Shown here: positions 34,158-45,690 of the stretch, in pieces
How positions within the stretch are numbered: position 1 is the stretch's first letter
Layout: the number at the start of each line of letters is the position of its first letter
Source: Sphaerisporangium rubeum
GTDB taxonomy: Bacteria > Actinomycetota > Actinomycetes > Streptosporangiales > Streptosporangiaceae
Direction of reading: 5' to 3'
Length of the DNA: 64,000 nt
Assembly: GCF_014207705.1 (NCBI RefSeq)
Contig: NZ_JACHIU010000001.1
Span: 3,216,501 to 3,280,500, forward strand
The notes under the pieces: generated by a model
What the model saw: only the letters and a program-made list of their open reading frames with translations
Told to the model about the DNA's origin: nothing
Database searches by the model: none
Translations under genes and position numbers: made by a program

Positions 34158-34229
34158 CACGCGCGCGTTTTCCGTTAGCCGGCCGCCGCGTGGGGCACGC
34201 GGGTGGTACAGCCCGAAGAAAGGTGTGCC

Positions 34230-34655
34230 ATGACAACCCTCAACGAACGGGAGAACGCGGCGAACCCGTACTCATCGCTCAGCACCGGAGAACTCGTCAA
34301 GCAGATGTCGGAGGACGTGTCGCGGCTGGTGCGCGACGAGATCCGGCTCGCCGCGCTGGAACTGTCCCGCAAGGGCAAGCGGGCCGGTCTCGGCGCCGGC
34401 ATGTTCGGCGGAGCGGGAGTGCTCGCCCTCTACGGCGGTGGCGCGCTGATCGCCGCCGTCATCCTCGCGCTGGCCCTGGTCGTGCCGGGGTGGCTGGCGG
34501 CACTGATCGTCGGCGCCGTCCTGCTGCTGCTGGCCGGCGTGCTCGGGCTCGGCGGCAAGCGCCAGGTGTCCAAGGCCACGCCGCCACTTCCCACGCAGAC
34601 CATCGAGAGCATCAAGGCGGACCTGGACGCCGTCAAGCAGGGGGCACACCGATGA
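34230..34655 (+). CDS. Actinobacterial holin-X-like (Phage_holin_3_6) membrane protein
   Basis: 141 residues from ATG 34230 with GAAAGGTG upstream. A polar N-terminus (S-T-G-E-L-V-K-Q-M-S-E-D-V-S-R-L-V-R-D-E-I-R as charged helix) precedes two membrane spans (about 62-85 and 90-110). The family is named for phage holins but is common as a chromosomal protein next to DUF3618 genes, so lysis is not implied. Its stop overlaps the next start (ATGA). Confidence 0.85.
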   Translation: MTTLNERENAANPYSSLSTGELVKQMSEDVSRLVRDEIRLAALELSRKGKRAGLGAGMFGGAGVLALYGGGALIAAVILALALVVPGWLAALIVGAVLLLLAGVLGLGGKRQVSKATPPLPTQTIESIKADLDAVKQGAHR

Positions 34656-38972: not shown

Positions 38973-39425
38973 TCAGATGGTGATCCACTCCGTGACCAGG
39001 GTCAGGCCGCCGACCCGGCAGCGGAGGCTGAACGGCCCCGCCGCCACGTGGTCGCACGAGAACCGCCCCATCGCGTCGGCGGTCACGGTGACCGGCCGGC
39101 GTCCCCGCACCTCCACCTCCGCCGTCCCCGGCGGCATCACCTGACCGACGACCCTGGCGCCGTCGGCGGACACCGTGATCTCCACGTCCACGCCGGCCTC
39201 CCCGGTGCGGAAGGCCGCCACCCGCGGTCCGTCGTCGCCGCGTACCGTCCCCGCGCCGTCCAGTGAGTCGAACGCGAGCGCGGCCAGTTCGTCGTCCATG
39301 GTGCGCACCGTGAAGGCGTCCACGGCGGCCTGGAGCAGCTCAGGCGGCACCGGGTCGAGCACCGCCGCCGCCTCACGCAGCTCTCGTTCGAGAGCGTCGT
39401 CCGGCCCGGTGCCAGGGGGGGTCAC
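38973..39425 (-). CDS. Small two-part protein coupled to a sigma factor
   Basis: 150 residues from GTG 39425 with GAGGGGACTC upstream; its start overlaps the sigma factor stop by 4 bp (GTGA). The first 60 residues are helical and acidic (L-R-E-A-A-A-V-L-D-P-V-P-P-E-L-L, then D-D-E-L-A-A-L-A-F-D-S). The rest looks like a small beta-sandwich, with V-E-V-R-G-R-R-P-V-T-V-T-A-D and G-R-F-S-C-D, as in carboxypeptidase-regulatory-like domains. No membrane span. Translational coupling suggests that it controls the sigma factor or is a target recognition part of the protease locus. I know no assigned function. Confidence 0.75.
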   Translation of the reverse strand: MTPPGTGPDDALERELREAAAVLDPVPPELLQAAVDAFTVRTMDDELAALAFDSLDGAGTVRGDDGPRVAAFRTGEAGVDVEITVSADGARVVGQVMPPGTAEVEVRGRRPVTVTADAMGRFSCDHVAAGPFSLRCRVGGLTLVTEWITI

Positions 39426-39997
39426 GAGTCCCCTCGCTCCACGAGCAGGGCACGCAGGCGCCGCAGGCAGCGCAGCCGGGTGGGGCCGATGCTTCCCACC
39501 GGGACGCCGAGCGCGGCCGACACCTCCTGGTACTGCGGCGGCGGCGTGGCCATGAGGACGCGCAGCAGCCGCCTGCAGGTGTCGCTCAGCTCCTCGAACG
39601 CCGACCACAGCCGCCGCACCCGTTCGCCGTGGTCGGCGGCGTCCTCCGCGTGGAGCACGGCGTCCTCCGGCGTGCCGTCCGCCGACGGCCCGTCGAGCAC
39701 CCACGGATCGCCGACCGGGGACTCCCTGCGAGCCATCCTGATGATCTTCAGGGACTCGTGCCTGGCCGTGGTCGCGAGCCACGACCCGACCTTCTCCGGC
39801 TCACGGATCCGGGTGAGGTGCTGCGCGAGCCGGAACCACGTCGTCTGGAACACCTCGTGCCCGTCGGCGTCGGACAGCCCGTGCGCGCGCGCGACCGACC
39901 ACACCAGCGGAGCGAGCCGCTCGACGAGCGCCTTCCATGCGGCGGCGTCACCCTCGGCCGCGGCACGGAAGAGGGCACCGATGGCGTCACGATCCAC
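39422..39997 (-). CDS. Sigma-70 family (ECF-like) RNA polymerase sigma factor
   Basis: 191 residues from GTG 39997, with AGAAGGA about 9 bases upstream; ATG 40027 is an in-frame alternative. Region 2 (about 5-85): L-F-R-A-A-A-E-G-D-A-A-A-W-K-A-L-V, then D-G-H-E-V-F-Q-T-T-W-F-R-L. Region 4 (about 125-185): Y-Q-E-V-S-A-A-L-G-V-P-V-G-S-I-G-P-T-R-L-R-C-L-R-R-L. It would direct transcription of a specific regulon. It is tightly linked to the small protein downstream and lies 75 bp from the S8 protease gene on the same strand. Confidence 0.9.
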   Translation of the reverse strand: MDRDAIGALFRAAAEGDAAAWKALVERLAPLVWSVARAHGLSDADGHEVFQTTWFRLAQHLTRIREPEKVGSWLATTARHESLKIIRMARRESPVGDPWVLDGPSADGTPEDAVLHAEDAADHGERVRRLWSAFEELSDTCRRLLRVLMATPPPQYQEVSAALGVPVGSIGPTRLRCLRRLRALLVERGDS

Positions 39998-40071
39998 GCG
40001 GACGATCCTTCTGGTGGGGATCATCATCGTACGCCGTCCACGACCCGCGCGACCCGCCGGCGGCGCGGCGG

Positions 40072-41652
40072 TCACACGTGCGGCAGCGGTGTCACCGGGA
40101 CCGGGTTCCAGCCGGACGGCCGCAGCGCGCGGACCGGCACACCGCGCACCGTCGCGCCGTACGCCTGGAGCCGCATCAGATCCTTCGCGGCGGCCCTCGG
40201 GTCGCGCTCCCCGGTCGTCACCATGTGGTCGGCGATCATCGCCGCGACGATCGGCGTGGAGAACGAGGTGCCGCTCCACTTGGCCCTGCCGGTGAACGCC
40301 GCCTGGTCCGCGACCTGTGGCGATTCGCTCAGCGCGCCGACCCTGGCGGGGAAGCCGCAGGTGCAGTCGTACAGGAAAGGAGCGTCGTAGGACGCCAGGT
40401 AGCGGCAGCGCTCGAACGTCGAGTGCTGGTACCGGTACGGCTGCGGGCCGTCGGCCCCGAGGAACGCGCCGACCAGCCGCTCCCCGGGTGCGTACACCCG
40501 CACCCACTCGCCGTGATCGGTGAAACAGGCGCCTTCCCTGCCGTCCACCCGCAGCGCACCCACCGACACCACTCCGTCGTTCTCCGCGGGGTACCGCGCG
40601 GCGGCGGCCGGCCAGAAAGGGGCGTCACTGCCGTTGTTCCCCGCCGCCGCCACCAGCAGGGTGCCGGGATGGTCCTTCAAGGCGTCCAGGAACCACTCCA
40701 AGCCCATGAGCGGCGTGAACAGCCCGTTGGCCGCGCCGGCCGACAGGCTGATGATGTCGGGCCAGCCGGGCTCCAGCGCCGCAAGGAGCCGCTTGGCGAA
40801 CTCCTCCTCCAGGACGCAGCCCGCGGGGGTCATCTTGTTGGACACCGTCACCCGCGTGTGCGGCGCCACCGCCTGGACCAGCCCCGCGATGAACGTGCCG
40901 TGGCCGACGTACTCACGCACGAACCCCGCCGGGTCGTGGGTGGGTGGCGGCCTGAGTCCGCTGCCGCCGGTGCCGGGAACTCCGGGGAACAGGGGACCAC
41001 CAGGGCTCAACGGGCCGGCGCCGGGGACGAAGGGGCCGCCGGGGACCGGCGGAAGGGTGCGGTGCTCGGCGGCGCGGGGGTCCATCTCGTCGGCCGGCGC
41101 CGGCGGCACGACACCTCTCATCCAGGGGTGCATGGTGTGCAGGTCCTTGACGACACCGGTGTCGATCACGAGCACCGTCACCGGTGGCCGGTCCTCCCCG
41201 GCCGCGGCCGGGGCCGCCCGCACGGCGGGGTGGAAGTCCTCCCACGTCGCCTCCGGCTCGTCGGCAGGACAGGAGTTCACCCCGCCGGGGGTGATGGTCA
41301 CCAGGTGGTTCCTGCTGGCGAGCTGCCGGCCGGCCCGGCCGTGCAGGCGTTCCAGGTCCCGCAGCGCGCCGACCACCCCGCCGTCGGGTGTGGTGGCGGT
41401 GTCCGGCGAGGCGACCGGGACCCGCAGCAGGCCGGAGGCCGGCCGGACCTCGGGGAGCCGGACCGGCTCACCCCGCCGTCCGCCGGTCGCGTTGAGCTCG
41501 TCCACCACCACGCCGGCCTCCTCGGCGCGGATCAGGAGGTAACCGCTCTCGTAGGCGTAGAAGGGGATCTCACCCGGCGGGCCGCCGACGAGCGTCGTCC
41601 CCATCGCCTCGGCGATGAACCGCAGCTGCTCATGGAATCGGTCGGGTGCCAT
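40072..41652 (-). CDS. Intracellular S8 (subtilisin-like) serine protease
   Basis: 526 residues without a signal peptide or prodomain of secreted type, so probably cytoplasmic. The triad is Asp164 in V-I-D-T-G-V, His251 in V-G-H-G-T-F-I-A-G and Ser463 in G-T-S-F-S-T-P-I-V-A-A, with oxyanion Asn in A-A-G-N-N-G. A Pro/Gly-rich insert of about 40 residues lies between Asp and His, and a Cys-containing insert (residues about 395-430) precedes Ser. The N-terminal 130 residues are an extra domain. It sits between a sigma factor and a divergent CHAT protease, suggesting a joint proteolytic system. Confidence 0.88.
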   Translation of the reverse strand: MAPDRFHEQLRFIAEAMGTTLVGGPPGEIPFYAYESGYLLIRAEEAGVVVDELNATGGRRGEPVRLPEVRPASGLLRVPVASPDTATTPDGGVVGALRDLERLHGRAGRQLASRNHLVTITPGGVNSCPADEPEATWEDFHPAVRAAPAAAGEDRPPVTVLVIDTGVVKDLHTMHPWMRGVVPPAPADEMDPRAAEHRTLPPVPGGPFVPGAGPLSPGGPLFPGVPGTGGSGLRPPPTHDPAGFVREYVGHGTFIAGLVQAVAPHTRVTVSNKMTPAGCVLEEEFAKRLLAALEPGWPDIISLSAGAANGLFTPLMGLEWFLDALKDHPGTLLVAAAGNNGSDAPFWPAAAARYPAENDGVVSVGALRVDGREGACFTDHGEWVRVYAPGERLVGAFLGADGPQPYRYQHSTFERCRYLASYDAPFLYDCTCGFPARVGALSESPQVADQAAFTGRAKWSGTSFSTPIVAAMIADHMVTTGERDPRAAAKDLMRLQAYGATVRGVPVRALRPSGWNPVPVTPLPHV

Positions 41653-41784
41653 CGGGGCTCCTCACAGGGTGGCCGGTCTCGCCGGACAAGAGTCACGTGC
41701 GGCCGGGCTGATACATCCCTGACCGATCGCGGACAACAGGAAACGACGTGGACGCCCCGAGACCCCACGTTTAGCATCTGGACC

Positions 41785-44430
41785 GTGGAGGGGGGAAGCG
41801 CTCCCGGTGATCCAGGGCCGCCGGGACCGGAAGACCTGCTGTCCCTGGTGTTCGCGCGTCCCGAAGAGGCCGTGGCAGGCGCTCGCGCGCTGCTCGGCGC
41901 GGCCCCCGCGCCGCACACCGCCTCGGTGGCCCATCAGGTGATCGGCATCTGGGAGCGCGACTTCGGCGACCTCACCGTCGCGCTCGGCCACCTGCGCCGG
42001 GCCCGCGCGCTGGCCCGGCGGTCCGGCTCGGCCGACCGGGAGGCCGACGCGCTCGCCGCGCTCGGTGTCGCCGTCGTCCACGCGGGCCACACCGGCCGGG
42101 GCCTCGCGTACCTGAACGCCGGGGTGACGCGGGGGAGCGGCCTCACCTCGGCACGGGTACGGTTCCGGCGCGCCAGGATCCTGTGGGTGCTCGGCCGGCA
42201 CCGCGAGGCCCTGGACGATCTGCGGCCCGCGATCCCGGTGCTGCGCGAGGCGGACGACACGATCTGGACGGCACGCGCGCTCACGCTGCGCGGCCTGCTC
42301 CACCTGGCGTCCGGCGCCACCGAGCAGGCCGACCTGGACTTCGCCGCCGCCGAGCACCTGTGGGAACGCACCGACCAGGACCACGACCGCGCTGTCGCGG
42401 TGTGGAACCGCGGGGTGGCGGCCTTCCTCGCGGGGGACCTGCCGGCCGCGCTGCGCCACTACGACGACGCGGCCCGGCGGTTCGAGACGCTCGGCACACC
42501 GGGGTACGGCCTGACGCTCGACCGGTGCTTCGCGCTGCTGGCCGCCGGTCTCGCCGAGGAGGCCCGGCACGAGGCCGACCGCGCGGCGGCGCTCCTGGAA
42601 CACACCCGCGGTCAGAGCACCACCAAGGCCGAGCTGATACTGGTGGCCGCGCGGGCCGCGACGGCGGCCCGCGACCCGCAGGCCGCGAGCGCGCGGGCCC
42701 TCATCGCGATCCGGCTGTTCGTCAGCCAGCGCCGCGGCTGGTGGGAGGCCCACGCGCGGCTCGTGCTCCACCAGGCGCGCCACGCCGCCGGCCGCACGTC
42801 GGGCCGTCAGGTGCGGGACGTCGCCGAGCTCGCCGTCCGCCTGCGGGACCTCGGCTCCCCGGAGGCCGTGCAGGCGTCCCTGCTGGCGGGCCGGGTCGCG
42901 CTCGCCTTCGGCTGGGCCGAGGACGCCGACAAGCATCTGGCCGAGGCCGCACGCGGCAGGCTGCGCGGCCCCGCGCAGGCCCGCGTCGCCGGATGGCTGG
43001 CGCACGCGCTGCGCGCGCAGGCCACGGGACGCCGCGCGGCGGTGTTCGCCGCCTGCCGCCGCGGGCTGGACGTGCTGGACGAGCACCGGCTCACCCTCGG
43101 CGCGGCCGAGCTGCGCGCGCGGGCCACCGCGCAGGGTGCCGAACTGGCCGCGCTCGCGCAGGAGGCGGCGCTGGCGTCGGGTGACCCGCGCAGGCTGCTG
43201 GTGTGGAGCGAGCGGTGGCGGGCCACCGCGCTCGCCGTGCCGCCGGTCCGGCCGCCGGACGACCCGGCGCTGCTGCGCGACACCGCCGCCTACCGCGAGG
43301 TCACCGGCCGGCTGGAGACGGCCCGTTCCACCGGCCGTCCCGCACCCGCGCTGGAGCGCGAGCACCGGCGGCTGGAGCGCGCCATCCGGGCCCGCACGCT
43401 GCGGGCCCGCGGTCCCGGCACGGGGGAGAGCCTCCGGTTCGACCCGCGCGCGCTGCTCGACCGGCTCGGTGACCGGCGCCTGGTCGAGATCACCGACGTC
43501 GGCGGAGTGGCGCGGGTCCTGGTGTGCGGCGCGGGAAAGGTGCGGGTGTTCACGGCGGGCCGCACCGCCGGCCTGGCCGCCGAGGTCGGCCACCTGCGCG
43601 CCGGGCTGCGGCGGCTGGCGTACCGGACGGCGGCCGGGTTCGCGGCGGAACGGCTCGCCGTGGTCGAGGCCGGGACGCGCCTCCTGCAGGAGACGCTGCT
43701 CGGCCCGGCCGTGCGCCACCTCGGGACGGGGCCGCTGCTGATCGTCCCGCCGGGGAGGCTGCACGGGGTGCCGTGGGCCGCGCTCCCCGCGCTGCGCGAC
43801 CGGGTGGTCGGTGTGTCACCATCGGCGGGTGCGTGGCTGCGCGCCGGTGACGTCGTGCCGCCGGACGCCGCCGACGGCGCCGGGGTGGTGCTCGTCCGTG
43901 GGCCGGGGCTCGCCGGCGGCGGGGCCGAGGTGCCGTCCCTGGCGGCGCGGTACGGCGGCGCGTCCGTGCTCGGCGACGGCGCGGCCACCGTCGCCGCCGT
44001 GCTCAAGGCCATCGACGGCAGCCTGCTCGCGCACATCGCGGCGCACGGCACGTTCCGCGCCGACAGCCCGATGTTCTCCGCGCTGCGTATGGACGACGGA
44101 CGGCTGACGGTGCACGACCTGGAACGCCTCGGCCGCGCGCCGTACCGGATCGTGCTGTCGGCGTGCGACTCGGGGTGGCTGGAGCCGGTCGGCGCCGACG
44201 AGCTGCTCGGCCTCGCCGCCGCGTTGCTGCCGCTCGGCACCGCGGGGATCGCGGCCAGCCTGGTCCCGGTGGACGACGAGGCGGCCGCCGCGTTGTCGGT
44301 GGCGCTGCACGACGGCCTGCGCGCCGGCCTCGGCACGGCCGAGGCGCTGCGCGACGCGCGCCGCGCGCTGCCCGACGACCCCCCGCACCGTGCCGCCGCT
44401 TGGTCGTTCACCGCCATCGGCGCCGCCTGA
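41785..44430 (+). CDS. TPR-CHAT caspase-like protease
   Basis: 881 residues from GTG 41785, the first start compatible with the divergent S8 gene; GGAGGGG lies inside the start region, so translation may be leaderless. Residues about 20-480 are helical TPR-like repeats (A-L-G-H-L-R-R-A-R-A-L-A-R-R, L-Y-N-A-G type). The C-terminal 300 residues form a CHAT domain with P-P-G-R-L-H-G-V-P-W, catalytic His754 in I-A-A-H-G-T-F and Cys794 in L-S-A-C-D-S-G, and G-L-A-A-A-L-L-P-L-G-T-A-G. CHAT proteases act in bacterial conflict and death pathways after activation through the helical sensor. Confidence 0.88.
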   Translation: MEGGSAPGDPGPPGPEDLLSLVFARPEEAVAGARALLGAAPAPHTASVAHQVIGIWERDFGDLTVALGHLRRARALARRSGSADREADALAALGVAVVHAGHTGRGLAYLNAGVTRGSGLTSARVRFRRARILWVLGRHREALDDLRPAIPVLREADDTIWTARALTLRGLLHLASGATEQADLDFAAAEHLWERTDQDHDRAVAVWNRGVAAFLAGDLPAALRHYDDAARRFETLGTPGYGLTLDRCFALLAAGLAEEARHEADRAAALLEHTRGQSTTKAELILVAARAATAARDPQAASARALIAIRLFVSQRRGWWEAHARLVLHQARHAAGRTSGRQVRDVAELAVRLRDLGSPEAVQASLLAGRVALAFGWAEDADKHLAEAARGRLRGPAQARVAGWLAHALRAQATGRRAAVFAACRRGLDVLDEHRLTLGAAELRARATAQGAELAALAQEAALASGDPRRLLVWSERWRATALAVPPVRPPDDPALLRDTAAYREVTGRLETARSTGRPAPALEREHRRLERAIRARTLRARGPGTGESLRFDPRALLDRLGDRRLVEITDVGGVARVLVCGAGKVRVFTAGRTAGLAAEVGHLRAGLRRLAYRTAAGFAAERLAVVEAGTRLLQETLLGPAVRHLGTGPLLIVPPGRLHGVPWAALPALRDRVVGVSPSAGAWLRAGDVVPPDAADGAGVVLVRGPGLAGGGAEVPSLAARYGGASVLGDGAATVAAVLKAIDGSLLAHIAAHGTFRADSPMFSALRMDDGRLTVHDLERLGRAPYRIVLSACDSGWLEPVGADELLGLAAALLPLGTAGIAASLVPVDDEAAAALSVALHDGLRAGLGTAEALRDARRALPDDPPHRAAAWSFTAIGAA

Positions 44431-44565
44431 GCAGTTCCCGTCGGCGGTGCCGCCTGAGCCGTTCCCCGCCGTTCAAGGTCGCCGGTAATTAGGTAGCGGG
44501 GTACTCATGCGCGGACGGCGCCGCGTCCCCAGCCTGGTCGGTACGCCAGACCACGGAGGGGACCC

Positions 44566-45690
44566 ATGACATCGGCCGGCGACGACCACGACGACTACGA
44601 CGCACACCAGATCGGCCCGCACTGCGCGTCGCCGCCGCAGTCCGTGCCCGCGGAGGCCGCCGCCGTCAGCGGCGTCCGGCTCGCGGCACTGATCAGCGGC
44701 CGGCTCAAGTGGCTGAACGGCACCGTGCTGCACTACTACTTCTTCGACAAGGAGGAGGACGGCTCGACCGTCACCCTGGCCGACGGCGGCACCGCGTTCG
44801 TGTCCTGGGTGGGGGACCAGACGCAGCGCGCCGCCGTGCGCGCCGCCTTCGAGCAGTGGAAGAGCCTCGGCATCGGGCTGGAGTTCGCCGAGGTGACCGA
44901 CCGCGCCGAGGCCGAGATCAGGATCGGCTTCATGCGCGGTGACGGTTCGTGGTCCTACCTCGGCCGCGACGCGCTCGGCATCCCCATCGGGGAGCGCACC
45001 GTGAACTACGGCTGGCGGCTGGACACCCCGCACGGCCGTACCACCGCGCTGCACGAGATCGGCCACGTCATCGGCATGCCGCATGAGCACCAGAGCCCGT
45101 TCTCCGGCCTGGTGTGGGACGAGGAGGCGGTCTACCGGGAGTTCTCGGGTCCGCCGAACAGCTGGTCGCGGCCGAAGATCTTCCACAACATCCTGCGCAA
45201 GCTCGACGCCTCAGAGGTGGACGGCTCACTGTTCGACTACCGATCGGTCATGGAGTACGCCTTCGGGCCCGGCCTGATCCTGGAACCCGAGGAGTTCCGC
45301 CGCGGCCTGGTCCCCCCGGGAGGGCTCTCCGCGGCCGACGAGGAGTTCGCGCGCCGCTGGTACCCCGGCCTCGCGCCGGCCGGCCCGCCGCGGCTCGCGG
45401 CGTTCACCTCGATGCCGCTCGGGCTGGCCCCCGGCCGGCAGGCCGACTACCTGATCATCCCCGAGGGCACCCGCGACTACACCGTGGCGACCTTCGGGGA
45501 CAGTGACACCGTGCTCGGCCTGTTCGAGGAGATCGACGGCGAGCCGCGGTACGTGCGGGCCGACGACGACGCCGGGACCGAGCGCAACTCCACGGTGACC
45601 GCGCGGCTGGTCAAGGGACGCCGCTACATCGCCAGGGTGCGGCTGTACTCCACGAGGGGGTCGGGTCAGACCGCGATCATGTACTGGTGA
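44566..45690 (+). CDS. Zinc metalloprotease, astacin/matrixin-like (HExxHxxGxxH)
   Basis: 374 residues from ATG 44566 behind GGAGGGGACCC. The zinc site H-E-I-G-H-V-I-G-M-P-H-E-H covers residues 163-175, and V-M-E-Y-A about 55 residues later supplies the Met-turn. The N-terminal part has A-A-F-E-Q-W-K-S-L-G-I-G-L-E-F, the usual prelude in M10/M12/M57 enzymes. A C-terminal beta domain (about 285-374) resembles pre-peptidase C-terminal domains. No signal peptide is seen, which is odd for the family. It follows the CHAT gene by 135 bp on the same strand and looks like a third arm of the locus. Confidence 0.85.
   Translation: MTSAGDDHDDYDAHQIGPHCASPPQSVPAEAAAVSGVRLAALISGRLKWLNGTVLHYYFFDKEEDGSTVTLADGGTAFVSWVGDQTQRAAVRAAFEQWKSLGIGLEFAEVTDRAEAEIRIGFMRGDGSWSYLGRDALGIPIGERTVNYGWRLDTPHGRTTALHEIGHVIGMPHEHQSPFSGLVWDEEAVYREFSGPPNSWSRPKIFHNILRKLDASEVDGSLFDYRSVMEYAFGPGLILEPEEFRRGLVPPGGLSAADEEFARRWYPGLAPAGPPRLAAFTSMPLGLAPGRQADYLIIPEGTRDYTVATFGDSDTVLGLFEEIDGEPRYVRADDDAGTERNSTVTARLVKGRRYIARVRLYSTRGSGQTAIMYW

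Follow-up and report, generated by a model that had tools for sequence, protein, structure and literature searches.

What might a sigma factor be doing beside several unrelated proteases? This question is raised by a locus in the complete, high-GC genome (7.5 Mb) of Sphaerisporangium rubeum, within a stretch of 64,000 nucleotides on contig NZ_JACHIU010000001.1, positions 3,216,501 to 3,280,500 (G000:C1:3216501-3280500), hereafter the window. Genes for an S8 subtilisin-like protease, an extracytoplasmic function (ECF) sigma factor and a small two-part protein form a row on the minus strand, and a divergent row on the plus strand encodes a TPR-CHAT caspase-like protease followed by a protein with an HExxH motif (Table 1). 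An earlier, sequence-only reading took these five genes for a cascade of three intracellular proteases, with a possible role in phage conflict. We find instead that the sigma, small, S8 and CHAT genes are a conserved module and that the HExxH gene is accessory. Tentatively, and with a probability of about 0.42, we regard the four genes as a cytoplasmic sigma-factor switch controlled by proteolysis.

A conserved module of four genes

Several features seen in the sequence-only reading hold up across relatives. The sigma and small genes had been described as translationally coupled, and the GTG start of the small gene does share bases with the sigma stop codon, in a GTGA overlap; of 84 sigma-small pairs, 48 have a possible start codon that overlaps the sigma stop, by either 4 bases or 1. 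The catalytic residues are intact, as claimed. The S8 triad is identical in all 140 aligned sequences that passed a length and score filter, the HEIGH motif is present, and the CHAT histidine and cysteine (H754/C794) are kept in 65 of 65 sequences of alignment A4 (the window protein plus 64 of 77 full-length CHAT references) and in all 92 sequences outside A4, which were checked separately. None of the five proteins has an obvious signal peptide or membrane anchor, because the 19-residue Kyte-Doolittle maxima of their N-terminal parts, a crude measure and no signal-peptide predictor, lie between 0.55 and 1.24. Together with the strong co-occurrence described below, this agrees with the view that the S8 and CHAT proteins are intracellular-looking and belong with the sigma and small proteins.

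We assessed gene content in four samples of loci. In the first, S8 matches (E ≤ 1e-20) in 13 of 60 relatives, the window's own genome included, gave 13 loci besides the window. A CHAT gene was seen at all 13, the small gene at 11, sigma at 10 and HExxH at 1; one miss (L035) lies at a contig end. The second sample comprised 80 CHAT-centred loci, all drawn from named genomes and the best 80 of 375 relatives, with S8 and CHAT in 80/80, small in 77, sigma in 76 and HExxH in 70, and with the order small-, sigma-, S8-, CHAT+, HExxH+ in 67. These loci are not independent, because 75 of the 80 are titled Streptomyces. Across 296 genomes of the window's class, the small-protein profile had matches in 99, representing 51 of 115 genera, and the third sample consisted of 60 small-centred loci from this class, chosen for spread over genera and not at random. 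Here sigma was found at 58 loci, CHAT at 47, S8 at 38 and HExxH at 1; a forty-eighth CHAT match, in L204, was discarded as really a TPR/NB-ARC protein. Among 396 genomes of the phylum, 41 contain the small protein, 11 of them in the window's class. From the 30 positive genomes of other classes, 28 were taken as the fourth sample (G715 and G755 were left out), and their 32 small-centred loci contain sigma in 30 cases, CHAT in 19 and S8 in 17. Sigma matches with E < 1e-30 are present at 58/60 small-centred loci within the class and 28/32 outside it.

The same association is seen at the level of whole genomes. When the 296 class genomes were searched with the wider CHAT profile (A4), 101 were positive: 97 of these also have the small gene and 4 have CHAT only, while 2 genomes have the small gene only and 193 have neither. 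By genus, CHAT occurs in 51 of the 115, the small gene in 51 and both in 49. A narrower CHAT profile (A1) gave 86 positive genomes, with 84 having both genes, 2 CHAT only, 15 small only and 195 neither. The A1 count is the safer one, because A4 was built mainly from small-centred loci and is partly circular, while A1 was gathered via S8 matches, independently of the small protein. One caveat for all such counts is that shared ancestry can inflate co-occurrence; the Fisher values for this association take account of relatedness by the genus tally only. In the CHAT-only genome G103, a small gene was found after all, beside the S8-CHAT pair (L226).

The HExxH gene follows a different pattern. It occurs in 10 of the 296 class genomes, all ten CHAT-positive, and lies within about 6 kb of CHAT in 8 of them, about 34 kb away in G095 and on another contig in G272. 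Co-occurrence of all five genes, which the sequence-only reading had made its own touchstone, is therefore borne out for sigma, small, S8 and CHAT but, across the class, not for HExxH.

The module is patchily distributed, also within genera. Within the window's genus, 7 of 11 genomes have the module's CHAT gene; for genus g46 the figure is 28 of 101, and the module is therefore optional there. We take g46 to be Streptomyces because CHAT genes from named Streptomyces are about 90% identical to those of g46. The host genome itself has two further four-gene modules (L024, G000:C1:5906000-5925900; L041, G000:C1:2307000-2326900), whose gene orders differ. Of its seven CHAT genes, three have module partners, whereas a search of 20 kb around each of the other four gave no match to sigma, small or S8. 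The large CHAT proteins outside the module (L037-L040) have open frames of 1071 to 1302 aa. The S8 match of L024 is reported with one internal TGA.

The small protein as a hub with a fixed arginine

Taking the nearest S8/CHAT pair in all annotated loci, we found 127 divergent, 31 on the same strand, 2 convergent and 3 more than 2.5 kb apart. The two halves of the locus are separated in some families, with sigma and small together at one place in the genome and S8 and CHAT at another. Each of the 19 CHAT stretches examined that lack the small gene includes an S8 neighbor (18 divergent, with L231 on the same strand), although in L227 this is only a fragment where the contig ends. In G099, G164 and G213 of the class and in G534 of another class, a single long contig carries the small and CHAT genes, or both pairs, at distant positions. 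In 12 out-of-class genomes the small locus is cut or has no CHAT gene, and 9 of these have a CHAT gene of the subfamily elsewhere (none was found in G671, G772 and G775). Not every split is proven, since some assemblies are fragmentary. These data show two tight pairs, sigma-small and S8-CHAT, which share genomes but need not be adjacent; simple linkage is no explanation for their association.

The small gene is the member that reaches across both pairs. It stands with sigma and no nearby protease at 10/60 class and 9/32 out-of-class small-centred loci, or at 6/43 and 7/23 when the count is restricted to loci flanked by 6 kb or more on each side. In L029, L051, L198 and L167, the last near a contig start, its neighbor is S8 and sigma is missing. 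Two out-of-class loci show multiplied partners around a single sigma gene: L253 (about 6.7-17.3 kb) and L254 (about 4.3-15.4 kb) each contain two CHAT genes, two S8 genes and two or three small genes. The small protein is, in these terms, the hub joining sigma to the proteases.

At seven protease-less sigma-small loci (L184, L186, L189, L199, L201, L204, L208), we scanned 17 neighboring proteins for a replacement protease and found none among them. The neighbors include a GNAT/CoA-ligase protein, DUF5998, a phosphodiesterase, thymidine kinase, GyrA, glycosyltransferases and others. A CHAT gene of the subfamily occurs elsewhere in 6 of these 7 genomes, and none was found in G126 (L201). Such split-system pairs can sit in housekeeping surroundings: a GNAT/CoA-ligase gene and a phosphodiesterase gene in L184 and L208, with DUF5998 in L208, while L189 and L204 have similarly sized genes.

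The N-terminal part of the small protein, helical by appearance only, contains DPVP and D-x-ELA-x-L-x-x-DS motifs. A linker rich in indels follows, and the C-terminal part shows a weak similarity to CarboxypepD_reg. This similarity is below the Pfam cut-off in the window protein (E 0.001), and 46 of 79 family members match the domain at E ≤ 0.1. A search of solved structures with the small-protein profile gave NOMO2 as best match (E 0.0014), with no single stretch passing. Natural sigma-small fusions, which would have demonstrated contact, were absent from the loci checked, except that in L086 part of sigma lies in the same frame.

Conservation within the small protein is concentrated at two positions. 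In alignment A3 (79 small proteins), R62 and G120 are the only invariant columns, and R62 is flanked by insertions on both sides, in 36 and 35 rows. For A3, 80 loci had been picked and L178 and L179 were left out at first; their later inclusion brings the arginine to 81 of 81 aligned proteins. The linker motif [VLATIM]R[GSADT] occurs in 75 of 79 linkers, compared to a mean of 22.7 (maximum 36) after shuffling and a mean of 20.3 (maximum 32) for random segments. It is present within residues 43-72 of the matched part in all 72 proteins outside A3, mostly from Streptomyces, and the arginine column holds R in 33 of 35 small proteins of other classes. One caveat is that an aligner with free gaps can favor such a column. 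A fixed residue inside a loop of free length looks like a protease recognition site, but could also be one that makes a contact.

A proposed proteolytic switch and its rivals

Two known systems resemble the module, and our literature search found nothing closer to this gene combination than the papers describing them. Sigma factors of group ECF54 lie near conserved subtilase, CHAT and 'carboxypeptidase' proteins, have no recognized anti-sigma factor and come mainly from Actinobacteria (PMC8999054). Control of these sigma factors by proteolysis, without an anti-sigma factor, has been proposed (PMC8999054, citing Casas-Pastor 2021 and Huang 2015). The module resembles the ECF54 arrangement in that its sigma gene has conserved subtilase and CHAT genes nearby. 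The 'carboxypeptidase' member probably corresponds here to the small protein, one part of which is weakly regulatory-like in the carboxypeptidase sense while an enzyme domain is absent, and we propose that the small protein is the soluble anti-sigma-like partner missing from ECF54. The second system is the type III-E Craspase (Csx29, Csx30 and CASP-sigma), which likewise combines a TPR-CHAT protease, an ECF sigma factor and a two-part partner in one locus. Csx29 cleaves Csx30 and thereby lifts inhibition of CASP-sigma by Csx30 (PMC10028731). There are differences. The window CHAT protein does not reach the cut-off of the Csx29 model NF041237 (E 0.0035, 16.3 bits versus 300), Csx30 has 565 aa versus 150 aa for the small protein (a comparison of sizes only), and the module adds an S8 protease.

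By analogy with Csx29, Csx30 and CASP-sigma, we propose the following scheme. The small protein, whose start overlaps the sigma stop, would bind the ECF sigma factor and hold it. The TPR part of the CHAT protease would sense a signal, upon which CHAT would cut the small protein at Arg62, in the linker between its two parts. Sigma, freed by the cut, would then transcribe its target genes, to which the S8-sigma-small row itself may belong. S8 would be a further intracellular protease in this pathway and may remove the cleaved product, or else activate or restrain CHAT. The AbsR1-related HExxH protein, judging from the literature on its relative SCO6992, may act as a lineage-specific output or co-regulator and not as a third protease. 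The genes, their residues, their co-occurrence, the separable pairs, the hub and the arginine are observed, and the analogy supplies binding, cutting and signal.

A number of points weigh against this switch. The Pfam scan at E ≤ 0.1 returned no known anti-sigma domain in the small proteins. Known Craspase cut sites are non-conserved and non-Arg (A|S, L|D, M|K) (PMC11106740), and hence a conserved arginine at P1 is not predicted by the analogy; the residue could be structural or contact sigma. It is absent from its column in L260 and L261, both from other classes, although L261 has MRG nearby. No close sigma match was seen at four small loci of other classes (L236, L237, L247, L258), and no CHAT match in the small-gene genomes G126 and G290 of the class or G671, G772 and G775 of other classes, some of these assemblies being incomplete (G772 is 96% complete). 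Finally, the small protein cannot be solely an anti-sigma factor, because sigma-less loci retain its gene.

Several other accounts of the locus deserve consideration. The ECF54 proposal, which we regard as rather unlikely here, has S8 and/or CHAT degrading sigma itself, so that the system is kept off with no anti-sigma factor. It was based on the conserved presence of carboxypeptidase, subtilase and CHAT proteins in the neighborhood (PMC8999054), and the common S8-sigma-small row in the window suits it. It gives the small protein no role, however, despite this being the most constant partner of sigma, and it explains neither the multiplication of small genes along with the proteases in L253 and L254 nor the conserved linker arginine. 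The small protein might alternatively, though we consider this unlikely, be mainly a substrate, inhibitor or adaptor of S8, with sigma merely controlling expression of the protease pair. The same row, and the loci where the small gene adjoins S8 in the absence of sigma, are what one would expect from such an arrangement, but sigma-small pairs that lie apart from both proteases favor a direct relation between sigma and the small protein. The switch might also be drawn more broadly than we have done: as a Craspase counterpart lacking the CRISPR part (cas genes were not searched for), present in about a third of class genomes, in which CHAT senses the signal, cleavage of the adaptor at the arginine frees sigma and S8 forms a second stage. 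Type III-E systems would then have borrowed an older switch for RNA guidance. This seems to us doubtful, if quite conceivable.

A role in defence, as envisaged in the sequence-only reading, would have CHAT sense infection and activate S8, with no HExxH step and with death or defence as the response. Relatives among TPR-CHAT proteins do function in defence (Csx29/Craspase, PMC10028731), and the patchy presence noted above would fit. The searches nevertheless speak against it. Best matches in PADLOC were weak or generic: IetS (E 4.6e-7, over 25 residues), a generic subtilase (E 6e-6, residues 149-480) and BovA (E 0.0014, over part of CHAT), while the sigma, small and HExxH proteins had no match at E ≤ 0.1. 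The module shares an S8 domain with the IetS-type anti-phage peptidase, but IetS models match only residues 458-484 around the active serine (23.3 bits versus an NCBIfam cut-off of 900), and none of the five genes encodes an ATPase. Neither the small nor the S8 protein had a match in 50,697 phage records, in which CHAT was not searched; the CHAT profile had none in a viral-contig scan and matched two plasmid-collection records, one of them 11.85 Mb long. Nor, judged by eye, are the window neighbors defence genes.

Data from Streptomyces coelicolor point in another direction. By gene order, the counterpart of the module is SCO6992-SCO6997, in the absR1/absR2 region. SCO6996 is a sigma factor (PMC9739823), SCO6995 has been published as a putative intracellular serine protease, and SCO6993, of LuxR type, adjoins SCO6992, which is AbsR1 (PMC9628970); from gene order alone, SCO6994 would be CHAT and SCO6997 the small protein. 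Three Streptomyces-type loci (L047 and L081, titled Streptomyces, and L155, of genus g46) have the order small, sigma, S8, CHAT, LuxR-type regulator, AbsR1. The regulator shows an AAA_16 match together with an HTH of LuxR type, and its gene runs in the opposite direction between CHAT and AbsR1. The window differs in having no LuxR gene at this position. Parts of the region affect antibiotic production (PMC2936110, PMC9705864), and SCO6992 is among the genes most differentially expressed between mycelial stages, with table values of 1.5, 4.7 and 5.8 (PMC3610822). These data speak for a role in development or antibiotic control rather than in phage defence, which we now hold to be quite unlikely.

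Least probable, in our estimation very improbable, is the five-gene cascade with HExxH as a true third protease. In its favor, the HEIGH of the window protein extends to a full metzincin motif (HExxHxxGxxHE) with an SVMEY Met-turn, and HExxH adjoins the module in most of the 80 CHAT-centred loci, the mostly Streptomyces set. Against it stand the rarity of the gene across the class and its kinship to AbsR1. The window protein matches NF050131 over nearly its full length at 540.8 bits, below the curated cut-off of 650, and is therefore a homologue and no certified AbsR1 equivalog; the module-neighbor AbsR1 proteins of L047 and L081 score 699.8 and 716.3 bits. In 12 of 70 aligned relatives (L055, L060, L061, L084, L090, L091, L100, L111, L116, L120, L122, L123), the catalytic Glu is replaced by Gln (HQxxH), so that the zinc ligands are retained and the catalytic base is lost. 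Escherichia coli possesses a β-glucuronidase of its own. Purified MBP-SCO6992, a fusion made in E. coli for which the authors show a vector control, had β-glucuronidase activity and no protease activity in the published assays, and the gene raised antibiotic production (PMC9705864). The HExxH assignment thus stands as far as the motif goes; for the window protein, protease activity is doubtful and a regulatory role probable.

Loci of this kind, resembling the ECF54 neighborhood, are already known. New here are the small protein as partner and hub, the split pairs, the conserved arginine, the AbsR1 correction and the Craspase-like scheme. ECF54-type sigma factors are listed as proteolysis-controlled with no partner or mechanism, and the partner, Arg62 and the division into two pairs give a testable scheme. 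If the proposed switch is correct, it would provide a molecular context for the antibiotic-regulating absR1 region of Streptomyces, and the CHAT-sigma wiring of type III-E CRISPR would represent a more general principle of bacterial signaling.

Candidate promoters and surroundings

The region between the two rows contains candidate control elements (Table 1). The bipartite element upstream of the S8-sigma-small row may be, at a guess, the sigma factor's own promoter. In the form TGTATC-N15-SNCTCT, it occurs once in the 7.5 Mb genome. Its TGATAC core is present in 91 of 116 S8-CHAT intergenic regions, mostly from related Streptomyces, compared to a mean of 1.6 in mononucleotide-shuffled controls. 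Using the S8 promoter element to look for a sigma regulon gave two matches in the window at two mismatches, which is chance level, and in the split loci of family f21 no motif common to the sigma and S8 upstream regions was seen by eye. On the CHAT side, the TAnnAT-N4-9-start pattern occurs in 30 of 50 diverse loci, split ones included (a count with no shuffle control), and the stricter TCTA[AG]CAT in 20 of 116 intergenic regions versus a shuffled mean of 0.2. These patterns suggest that CHAT expression is leaderless, from a promoter of housekeeping type.

Table 1. Genes and sequence elements of the locus, in window coordinates
Feature	Position	Strand	Remarks
Small two-part protein	38973-39425	-	150 aa; GTG start
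Arg62 codon, small-protein linker	39240..39242	-	proposed cleavage or anchor residue
ECF sigma factor, regions 2+4	39422-40024	-	200 aa; alternative ATG at 40027; TIGR02937 E 9.1e-18 over residues 29-192; Sigma70_r2 E 4.7e-11
S8 subtilisin-like protease	40072-41652	-	526 aa; Peptidase_S8 E 4.5e-15; triad D164/H251/S463
Bipartite element TGTATCA-N14-GACTCT	41689..41715	-	upstream of S8-sigma-small row; candidate promoter or operator
Putative leaderless-type CHAT promoter TGGACG-N17-TAGCAT	41749..41784	+	7 bases, then GTG start; read from sequence
TPR-CHAT caspase-like protease	41785-44430	+	881 aa; CHAT E 1.1e-30; H754/C794
HExxH protein, AbsR1-related, metzincin-like, accessory	44566-45690	+	374 aa; NF050131 BGluronaseAbsR1 E 1.4e-162

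A 700-aa open frame on the minus strand (41662-43764), opposite CHAT, is taken to be antisense. By eye, the neighbors within the window include NAD kinase, CrcB-like, Hsp20-like, CBS and Usp-like genes. An actinobacterial Holin-X family protein (PF07332, E 3.9e-40) is encoded at 34203-34655.

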